Source: an uncultured Geobacter sp. (lineage in GTDB: Bacteria; Desulfobacterota; Desulfuromonadia; Geobacterales; DSM-12255). From it: DNA of 64,000 nt. Location: assembly GCA_937860145.1 (NCBI GenBank), contig CALMBF010000024.1, positions 1 through 64,000 of the forward strand. Direction: 5' to 3'. The translations under genes were made by a program, and so were the position numbers. The notes under the pieces are model-generated. The model made no database searches. It had not been told where the DNA came from and worked only from the letters and a program-made list of their open reading frames with translations. This document shows, piece after piece, positions 31,237 through 34,860 of this stretch. Numbering within the stretch: the first letter of the stretch is position 1; every line of letters begins with the position of its first letter.

Positions 31237-31247
31237 GAAAAGGAAGT

Positions 31248-31350
31248 TAAAGGGGAGTAGCTACCGGCCACCGAAAAGGCCGGCCCCGAGCCCGTCAATA
31301 CGGTCGAACGACCCGGGCCGGGGACGAATGATTCGTCAGCAAGACCTTTA
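31248..31350 (+). promoter_or_regulatory. yybP-ykoY manganese riboswitch aptamer
   Basis: The element shows the conserved blocks of the family in order: TAAAGGGGAGTAGC at the 5' side, CCGTCAATACGG in the internal loop, and AGCAAGACCTTT at the 3' side. A GC-rich arm (CCGGCC...GGCCGG) lies between. The closing helix P1 pairs TAAAGG (31248-31253) with CCTTTA (31345-31350). The 3' strand of P1 is also the 5' arm of the terminator at 31341-31387. Metal binding that stabilises P1 should therefore block the terminator and permit expression of the downstream operon. Confidence 0.95.
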
Positions 31351-31387
31351 TCCAGGCAACCGTGCCGGGGGTAAAGGTCTTTTTTTA
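31341..31387 (+). terminator. Riboswitch-controlled intrinsic terminator
   Basis: AAGACCTTTATCC pairs with GGGTAAAGGTCTT (one G-U pair) around an inner GGCA...TGCC loop, followed by seven T. Its 5' arm overlaps the 3' strand of riboswitch helix P1, so the two folds exclude each other. Confidence 0.93.
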
Positions 31388-31426
31388 TTACCTCCGGCGA
31401 GAGACAAATCGTTGGAGGTACATAAG

Positions 31427-32284
31427 ATGAACCGACTCAAGACAACCCTGCTTCTCTCCCTGCTCACCGTCCTCATGGTCCTCATGGGGAGTGCCATCGG
31501 CGGCAAGTCCGGCATGATCTTCGCTTTTGTCATGGCCCTTGGCATGAATTTCTTCTCCTACTGGTTTTCCGACAAGATCGTCCTGCGGATGTACGGCGCC
31601 CAGGAGATCGGCGAGCACGACCACCCCGCCTTCTACGGCATGGTCAGGCGCTTGGCGCTTCAAGCCGGTCTCCCCATGCCGAAGGTCTACATCATCCCCG
31701 ATGAATCCCCCAATGCGTTCGCCACGGGGCGCAACCCCGACCACGCTGCCGTGGCCGCCACCCAGGGGATCCTGCGCATTCTCACCCCCGAGGAGCTGGA
31801 GGGGGTGATGGCCCACGAACTGGCCCACGTGCAGAACCGGGACATCCTGGTCGGCACCATCGCCGCCACCTTTGCCGGTGCCATCTCCATGCTGGGGAAC
31901 ATGCTCCAGTGGGGGGCCATGCTCGGCGCAGGCCGGAGTGACGACGAGGAGGGGGGAGGTGGCCTGGTCGGCTCCCTGGCCATGGCGATCATCGCACCGA
32001 TCGCCGCCATGCTGATCCAGATGGCGGTCTCCCGCTCCCGGGAATACCTGGCGGACGAGACAGGCGCCCGGATCTGCGGCAGACCCCTGGCCCTGGCCAG
32101 TGCCCTGCACAAGCTGCACAACGTCGGACGGATGGTGCCGATGGAGGGGGCGACGCCGGCCACTGCCCACCTGTTCATCGTCAGCCCCCTTGCCGGCGGC
32201 TCCCTGCTGCAGCTCTTTTCGACCCACCCTCCCATGGAGGAGCGGATCGCCCGCCTCGAAAAGATGTCCCGGTGCGGATGGTAG
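31427..32284 (+). CDS. htpX: HtpX-family membrane zinc metalloprotease
   Basis: The 285-residue M48B protease has two N-terminal spans, the zinc motif HELAH near residue 130 with the downstream glutamate in SREYLADE near 208, two more hydrophobic spans (about 142-160 and 180-200), and the C-terminal [11 protein letters not shown] typical of HtpX. It degrades damaged inner-membrane proteins. GGAGG lies 8 bp before the ATG. It is the first gene after the manganese riboswitch and terminator, so its expression should follow manganese, an unusual placement for a quality-control protease. Confidence 0.95.
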
Positions 32285-32345: not shown

Positions 32346-32912
32346 ATGGGAAACAGATATTGCAGGATACTCCCCTGCGTTGCCTTTGCCGGAATAATGT
32401 CCCTGGCCGTTTCGTGGGACGCGGGCGCGACAGTCACCGGCGGGACGGTTCCACCGGCCCTGTTCACGCAGCTGGAGCAGTTTCACGGGCACATTTGTGC
32501 CGGGTCCCTGTTTGGGGCACGAATGGGGGTTGCCGCCAGGGAGGCACTCCGCGACGCGGGTGGGGAAGGGCGACTGAAGGCCCGCTATTACGACCTCTCC
32601 TGTCCTCTGGACGGTATTCAGGCGGGGGCGGGCACGACCTACGGCAATGCCGACCTGATGGTGGAGGATCGTGATGAACACCGGCTCGTACTGACCGCGG
32701 ACGGCAACAAGCGCCAGGTTGAGGCCCGACTCACCAGGAAGGCGGAGGAACTGGGGCTCCGCTCCCGTGAACTGGGGAAGAAAGCCCGCTCCCTCCCCCA
32801 GGATTCCGCCGAACGGAAACGACTGGAGCGGGAGATCGAGGGGATATTCACCTGGCTCCGCACTGCCCCGACGTCCGAGGTCGTTGCCATTACTCCCGGC
32901 CAGGTACGGTAA
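32346..32912 (+). CDS. Secreted FmdE-like domain protein
   Basis: The 188-residue protein has a signal peptide (about 1-29) and a domain similar to subunit E of formylmethanofuran dehydrogenase: FHGHICAGSLFGARMGVAAREAL near residue 46 with the conserved His and Cys. DLSCPLDGIQAGAGTTYGNADL follows near 90. The remainder is a charged helical region (about 125-170). FmdE-like domains bind metal through His/Cys, but a secreted form has no established role. The GGAGG site is 5 bp before the ATG. It sits between htpX and TerC in the riboswitch-controlled operon, so a periplasmic metal-related role is inferred. Confidence 0.78.
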   Translation: MGNRYCRILPCVAFAGIMSLAVSWDAGATVTGGTVPPALFTQLEQFHGHICAGSLFGARMGVAAREALRDAGGEGRLKARYYDLSCPLDGIQAGAGTTYGNADLMVEDRDEHRLVLTADGNKRQVEARLTRKAEELGLRSRELGKKARSLPQDSAERKRLEREIEGIFTWLRTAPTSEVVAITPGQVR

Positions 32913-32949: not shown

Positions 32950-33885
32950 GTGTCTGAAACCATGATCATGTGGACACTCTTCGCCGTCGTTTTCGGCGTC
33001 ATGCTTGCCGTCGACCTCGGCCTCAACCGGAAAAGCCACGAGGTCTCCTTTCGCGAGGCGCTCGTCTGGAGTACGGTCTGGATTGCCTTGGCCCTGGCCT
33101 TCAACGCCGGGATCTACCTGGTCATGGGGAGCGGCAAGGCACTGGAGTTTTTCAGCGGCTATGTCATCGAAAAAGCACTCTCCGTCGACAACCTCTTCGT
33201 CTTCATCATGATCTTTTCCTACTTCGGTGTGCGAGGCCATCATCAGGCCCGCATCCTGAAGTGGGGGATCGTCGGTGCCCTGGTGATGCGGGCTCTGTTC
33301 ATCTTCGCCGGCATCGGGCTTCTGCAGAGATTCAACTGGCTCTTCTACCTCTTCGGTGCGCTCCTGGTGGTAACCGCCGTTAGAATGGCATTCGGCGGCG
33401 AGGGGGAGGTGGACCCGGAACGGAACCCGGTGGTCAGGGGGCTCAGGAAGCTTCTTCCGGTGACCCGCTCTATCCGCGGTGACTGGTTCGTCACCCGGCG
33501 ACGGGGGATGCTGGTTGCAAGCCCGCTGCTGGTGACCCTGCTCGTGGTGGAATGGAGCGACCTGGTCTTCGCCCTCGACTCCATCCCGGCCATCTTTGCA
33601 GTGAGTCTCGACCCCTTCATCGTCTTCACTTCAAACATATTTGCCATCATGGGGCTGCGGGCGCTCTACTTCCTGCTGGCGAACGTCATGGGGATGTTCG
33701 TCTACCTGAAGTATGGCATATCGTTCATCCTGCTCTTCGTCGGCTGCAAGATGCTTGCAGGGGTGAGCGGTTTCCACATCCCCGTCACCGTGTCGCTGGC
33801 AGTCATTGCCGTGTCGCTGGCACTGGCGGTCGTCGCATCCCTCTTGTTCGGAAACCGGCGCGACCCGGCGCTGGAATCGGTCTGA
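32950..33885 (+). CDS. TerC-family membrane protein (probable manganese exporter), long form
   Basis: The 311-residue protein has about nine spans and two acidic membrane motifs typical of TerC: LSVDNLFVFIMIFSYF near residue 78 and WSDLVFALDSIPAIFAVS near 205. Members such as Alx and YceF/MeeF export Mn(II), often under yybP-ykoY riboswitches, which agrees with the control element upstream. The GTG at 32950 has AAGG 8 bp before it. The N-terminal DLGLNRKSHEVSFREAL is the Alx-type long form. It is the third gene of the operon. Confidence 0.92.
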   Translation: MSETMIMWTLFAVVFGVMLAVDLGLNRKSHEVSFREALVWSTVWIALALAFNAGIYLVMGSGKALEFFSGYVIEKALSVDNLFVFIMIFSYFGVRGHHQARILKWGIVGALVMRALFIFAGIGLLQRFNWLFYLFGALLVVTAVRMAFGGEGEVDPERNPVVRGLRKLLPVTRSIRGDWFVTRRRGMLVASPLLVTLLVVEWSDLVFALDSIPAIFAVSLDPFIVFTSNIFAIMGLRALYFLLANVMGMFVYLKYGISFILLFVGCKMLAGVSGFHIPVTVSLAVIAVSLALAVVASLLFGNRRDPALESV

Positions 33886-34269: not shown

Positions 34270-34860
34270 ATGGACAAGACGATTTTTCTCAGTACCTTCG
34301 GCCTGATTTTCCTGGCTGAGCTGGGGGACAAGACCCAGCTGACCGCCATGGCGCTGGCGCTCCGTTACCCGTGGCAGCGGATATTCGTCGGCATCGCGGC
34401 CGCTTTCGTGGTCTTGAACCTGGCGGCGGTCATGGTGGGGAAGGTGCTGTTCCTGATCCTGCCGATTTTCTGGGTGACGCTGGTGTCGGCGCTGCTGTTC
34501 CTCTATTTCGGCTACAGCACCCTCCGGCATGCCTGCGACAGCGACGATGACGGCGGTGGTCACCCCACCACCGCTGCCACTGCTGCACGTACCGCCTTCA
34601 TCATGATCTTCATGGCCGAACTGGGGGACAAGACCCAGCTGGTCACCGCCAGCCAGGCAGCCCAGCACTCGTCAACCCTCGGGGGGATGGGGAGCGTCTT
34701 CCTGGCATCGACGCTGGCGCTCTGGTCGGTGTCGCTCCTGGGGATCTTTGCCGGCAAGCAGCTGGTCCGCTTCGTCCCCCTGTGCTGGATACACCGCTGC
34801 GCCGGGTTCATGTTTCTGGTCTTCGGCGTCATCTCGCTCTGGAAACTGCAGGGGATGTAG
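34270..34860 (+). CDS. GDT1/TMEM165 (UPF0016) family cation exporter, probably for manganese
   Basis: The 196-residue protein is an internal duplication of three spans each. Each half carries the hallmark E-x-G-D-K-T: AELGDKTQLTAMAL near residue 16 and AELGDKTQLVTASQ near 117. An acidic/glycine linker (SDDDGGGHP) joins the halves. Bacterial members such as MneA export Mn(II). Location between TerC and a manganese-dependent pyrophosphatase supports manganese as substrate. The gene has its own 145-bp leader without a second riboswitch. Confidence 0.93.
   Translation: MDKTIFLSTFGLIFLAELGDKTQLTAMALALRYPWQRIFVGIAAAFVVLNLAAVMVGKVLFLILPIFWVTLVSALLFLYFGYSTLRHACDSDDDGGGHPTTAATAARTAFIMIFMAELGDKTQLVTASQAAQHSSTLGGMGSVFLASTLALWSVSLLGIFAGKQLVRFVPLCWIHRCAGFMFLVFGVISLWKLQGM

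Follow-up and report, generated by a model that had tools for sequence, protein, structure and literature searches.

How exported metalloproteins obtain the right metal is an open question, for which TerC proteins have recently been proposed as loaders, and the locus studied here adds a question of its own: what would a small exported protein of the FmdE family (PF02663) be doing between htpX and a TerC gene, behind a leader that appears to sense manganese? A preliminary description of the window (the whole stretch of DNA analysed, 64,000 nucleotides from an uncultured Geobacter sp.) had proposed this protein as a possible new manganese-handling factor. The features on which we base our answer are the following.

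31246 to 31352, + strand: putative Mn2+ (yybP-ykoY type) riboswitch aptamer, with P1 (UAAAGG/CCUUUA), P2, P3, P3b and P4, L1 GGGGAGUAG and L3 CGUCAAUAC
31341 to 31390, + strand: predicted intrinsic terminator, 5' arm AAGACCUUUAUCC; fold -24.8 kcal/mol (z -3.35); all 13 pairs formed in each of seven relatives
31427 to 32284, + strand: htpX, membrane zinc metalloprotease (M48); NF002826, 409.6 bits; PF01435
32346 to 32912, + strand: FmdE-domain protein, predicted to be exported; 188 aa; AlphaFold2 pLDDT 88.4
32346 to 32432, + strand: predicted signal peptide of that protein, approximately residues 1-29, from sequence features; low pLDDT over residues 1-31; core ILPCVAFAGIMSL unusually conserved
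32484 to 32603, + strand: putative metal ligand span, H47 (32484), H49 (32490), C51 (32496) and C86 (32601)
32950 to 33885, + strand: TerC/Alx family integral membrane metal homeostasis protein; TIGR03718, 397.5 bits
33912 to 34124, + strand: small ribbon-helix-helix-like protein; RHH_1, 17.9 bits, below the cut-off of 20.5; recurs in eight loci
34270 to 34860, + strand: GDT1 family divalent cation/proton antiporter; PF01169, 143.7 bits
34920 to 36566, + strand: DHH/DHHA2 pyrophosphatase with CBS and DRTGG domains; PF02833, PF01368, PF07085, PF00571
36637 to 37377, + strand: second TerC family protein; PF03741, 158.4 bits

The FmdE gene lies where it had been placed, between htpX (61 nt upstream) and the TerC/Alx gene (37 nt downstream). 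All genes from htpX to the second TerC gene are on the + strand, with short spacers from htpX as far as the first TerC gene, and from this spacing and common strand we infer that htpX, FmdE and TerC are co-transcribed. The ribbon-helix-helix-like protein 3' of TerC is conserved in the cluster of eight relatives and is a possible DNA-binding regulator, and the DHH pyrophosphatase also adjoins FmdE in three other loci (L057, L058, L059). No formylmethanofuran dehydrogenase (Fmd/Fwd catalytic subunit) genes occur near the FmdE ORF, and a reading of the gene as part of an fmd operon, encoding a subunit of that enzyme, was discarded in view of its neighbours (htpX, TerC, GDT1, pyrophosphatase) and its signal peptide.

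The operon had been called manganese-switched, a claim that by Rfam alone would fail, because the leader scores 17.8 bits against RF00080, below the gathering threshold of 45; Rfam scans at gathering and relaxed thresholds returned no confident manganese riboswitch. A covariance model built from seven leaders of relatives (R1, ~155 nt, 85% mean column identity) gave the window leader 177.2 bits. In the aptamer, 99% of cells are paired, the fold z is -3.7 and 10 pairs are changed on both sides, where shuffling gave 3.4 such pairs and slid controls no more than 1. Its L1, conserved L3, P1 and conserved structure are features common to proven yybP-ykoY members, and R1, run unfiltered on 17 kb of E. 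coli K-12, recovered the alx leader first and the mntP leader second (E 0.003 and 0.023), both on the right strand. Because covariation, a competing terminator and the recovery of the alx and mntP leaders agree, we regard the identity as confirmed at the level of sequence and class the leader as a divergent member of the yybP-ykoY Mn2+ riboswitches, so that the manganese switch of the preliminary description stands.

Since the 5' arm of the terminator includes the 3' strand of P1, the two structures are mutually exclusive; ligand-bound P1 should therefore prevent termination, which we read as Mn = ON. In this scheme Mn2+ would stabilise the aptamer, P1 would capture the terminator 5' arm, and htpX, FmdE and TerC would be read through. 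Within the order, 117 of 141 genomes have an R1 match, usually 5' of htpX and then TerC, and htpX or TerC lies 3' of the leader in nearly all of 30 leader loci. The E. coli alx and mntP operons have a homologous leader, with TerC/Alx as the classical member of yybP-ykoY operons; compared with these, the window operon adds htpX and an exported FmdE, and its leader is too divergent for the Rfam threshold. Such leaders appear to form a divergent Mn2+ riboswitch subgroup below the RF00080 threshold (31246-31400, +, in the window; L136:4378-4498; L135:2971-3062), mostly before htpX or TerC.

As to the protein itself, PF02663 matches residues 46-180 of 188 at 79.2 bits (cut-off 22.9), in agreement with the domain first assigned, and NCBIfam holds no model matching it. 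The best match of the predicted structure in the PDB was 2glz (Foldseek E 3.4e-8, TM 0.57/0.70), and the four matches at E<=0.001 are all FmdE chains, from 2glz, 2gvi and 3d00 only; the alpha+beta core fold of the family is thus present in the model and is common to the solved structures from Desulfitobacterium (2glz), Thermoplasma (2gvi) and Syntrophus (3d00). Like 2glz, the window protein has a single core domain. It differs from the solved proteins (18-20% identity) in its signal peptide and its Mn-riboswitch/TerC/htpX setting, and it is without the C-terminal zinc finger. With the FmdE of methanogen formylmethanofuran dehydrogenase operons it has the Pfam domain in common, whereas by its sequence it is exported, and it sits in a bacterial manganese operon. 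A scan of the genome's own contigs found two loci only, and the genome's cytoplasmic zinc-finger copy (L001) is nearer to the methanogen type than the window protein is.

The N-terminus, MGNRYCRILPCVAFAGIMSLAVSWDAGAT, shows the n-h-c order of Sec signal peptides: a positively charged n-region is followed by a hydrophobic core (ILPCVAFAGIMSLAVS) and then A-x-A, with no twin-arginine motif. From the sequence we therefore assign a Sec-type signal, as the preliminary description had done in less specific terms. The same features are found in close homologues and are absent from ArsP-linked and zinc-finger FmdE proteins. Within the Mn-linked clade, the signal core is 81% identical, the mature part 78% and the linker 40%, and 32% of the codons compared carry synonymous changes; the metal ligands and the signal-peptide core are kept under purifying selection. 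The core ILPCVAFAGVM (32364-32405, +, and relatives) is conserved like the mature protein, which is unusual for a cleaved signal peptide.

For the metal site, a conserved "His/Cys pair" had been described; the ligands are indeed conserved, but the site consists of two His and two Cys. H47, C51 and C86 do not vary across 40 FmdE sequences, and H49 is kept in at least 90% of them, so the HxHxC...C metal site of the family is intact in the window protein. Two Cys with two His favour Zn2+, Ni2+ or Fe2+ over Mn2+, for which this is an atypical ligand set, and a Mn-specific (O/N-rich) set was sought in the window protein and not found. The four residues align with the tetrahedral Zn/Ni ligands seen in crystals of 2glz, His15, His17, Cys19 and Cys55 (PMC2954224), and the Zn(/Ni) site of 2glz and 2gvi uses the same four ligands. 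With these ligands conserved and the predicted fold matching 2glz, a metal site is present, as had been supposed; "manganese-binding" is chemically unsupported because the homologous site held Zn/Ni in crystals, and Zn/Ni rather than Mn is the favoured occupant of the putative site.

Homologues were sought in the order, the phylum and the class of G419, and linkage was counted in a close set of 15 (at least 63% identity, ChrA-linked paralogue left out). TerC/Alx lies within 4 kb of FmdE in eight of these (G000, G003, G008, G023, G075, G080, G083, G120), an R1 leader is found no more than 4 kb upstream, on the same strand, in seven (G000, G001, G004, G023, G086, G098, G120), and 14 adjoin at least one of TerC, htpX, GDT1, DHH pyrophosphatase or the riboswitch. 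The recurrent association with manganese genes, on which the preliminary description had staked its proposal, is therefore found. Chance values under independence are ~1.6e-15 for TerC linkage and ~1e-18 for leader linkage, figures that ignore shared descent; the counts are not independent because the homologues are related, and by genus TerC linkage holds in 6 of 7. Gene order varies between genomes (FmdE-TerC, TerC-FmdE, htpX-FmdE-RHH, FmdE-PPase). At a locus outside the order (L073), FmdE is near a Tim44-like gene, a Zn-ribbon gene, TerC and htpX, and elsewhere an internally deleted TerC remnant of 73 aa stands directly 3' of FmdE, beside a P-type cation ATPase gene (G096; L051:6334-6555, -). 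Since, of 141 genomes of the order, about 20 carry an FmdE homologue and 103 carry TerC/Alx, FmdE is dispensable for TerC generally.

Given a conserved metal site, a Mn-sensing cluster and a pairing that recurs in relatives, FmdE probably assists in handling metal outside the cell membrane, a role not recognised before. More specifically, we consider it about an even call that it is a periplasmic FmdE-family metalloprotein, an accessory of TerC-based Mn export and metalation in a Mn2+-induced operon, a role that would fit the combination, under one Mn2+ switch, of htpX, TerC and a Sec-exported protein with a metal site. In B. subtilis, the TerC proteins MeeF and MeeY load exported enzymes with metal and are purified together with SecY, SecDF and HtpX (PMC10550928); a TerC protein, Mn control and a contact with HtpX are common to that system and the window operon, whereas no FmdE protein is described there. 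FmdE may act next to TerC/Alx on the periplasmic side of the inner membrane, where it could be a metal buffer or chaperone keeping the correct (soft, Zn/Ni/Fe-like) metal available, could remove wrongly loaded metal under Mn excess, or could itself be a client, metalated on export. Among these roles we favour the accessory metal buffer or chaperone, whose four ligands would hold Zn/Ni in preference to Mn. A bolder form, which we hold to be unlikely, would make FmdE a dedicated TerC partner, that is, a periplasmic metallochaperone or metal-swap protein, controlled by the Mn riboswitch, that joins TerC and HtpX at the Sec translocon and in which the signal segment ILPCVAFAGVM is a retained anchor or recognition element.

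The protein might instead be an exoenzyme metalated by TerC during Sec export and handling no metal for others. Direct adjacency (37 nt in the window, a 1-nt overlap of FmdE and TerC in L004) is consistent with this, as is its Sec-type signal, given that TerC metalates Sec-exported enzymes (PMC10550928), but PF02663 has no known catalytic activity, cysteine ligands are ill suited to Mn2+, and the Bacillus TerC clients are no operon neighbours, as far as that paper states, so we judge a client enzyme improbable.

The linkage may also be to metal and ion efflux in general, because exported relatives adjoin other transporters: CDF and CNNM (L060), a P-type ATPase (L051) and MFS/LysE (L064-L066), besides ChrA and GDT1. 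In the genome itself, a second exported FmdE gene on contig 183 overlaps a chromate transporter (ChrA) gene (L002:1465-2070, -; L063:6802-7407); this paralogue is without the ILPCVAFAGVM core. An exported FmdE would then be a general periplasmic efflux accessory, attaching to whichever exporter adjoins rather than specific to Mn, which would also suit the cytoplasmic relatives beside ArsP_1 permeases and a 2010 structure paper, in which most PF02663 genes adjoin metal-ion transporters and a role in metal-ion transport is suggested. Against this, nearly all members of the close clade are in the Mn cluster, and the ChrA-linked copy is nested in that Mn-linked clade as a later paralogue; we regard a general efflux accessory as doubtful. 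That FmdE merely hitchhikes in a membrane-stress cluster (htpX), with no metal-related role in the operon, would suit its patchy presence (20 of 141 genomes) but is very unlikely in view of repeated linkage to several different Mn-cluster genes in rearranged orders and of the purifying selection on metal ligands and signal core.

The accessory reading thus keeps part of the original proposal of a new manganese-handling factor: export, the Mn-riboswitch operon, recurrence and the metal site speak for it, while Mn handling is not supported by ligands of Zn/Ni type. "New" is limited to the exported Mn-operon branch, since PF02663 had already been given a possible part in metal transport in 2010; the novelty lies in the existence of this branch, in its association with the Mn riboswitch, TerC and htpX, and in how strongly the core of its signal peptide is conserved. 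In the literature searched, the full name "formylmethanofuran dehydrogenase subunit E" is paired with TerC in no paper, and FmdE and Geobacter occur together only in a paper on Methanosarcina gene expression. As a small soluble protein with a metal site, placed under the same Mn2+ riboswitch as TerC and HtpX, FmdE would be a testable candidate for a periplasmic partner, and PF02663, without known function since its structures were solved, would gain a physiological context outside methanogenesis.

Several other settings of the family were seen. Genes for cytoplasmic FmdE proteins without a signal peptide are flanked by those for an AAA ATPase and an ArsP_1 permease (L076, L078-L080, L082, L084-L086), and the ArsP-linked homologues (L076, L078-L087) were dropped from the exported group on account of the missing signal peptides. 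One exported FmdE is near an aldehyde ferredoxin oxidoreductase (tungsten-enzyme family) gene (L077:5389-9368, -). A different leader, starting AAAGGGAGTAGC and with a terminator-like end (L057:7784, -; L058:5031, +; G046, G049), precedes an AI-2E-type permease, FmdE and DHH pyrophosphatase, and is possibly another Mn-switch variant.
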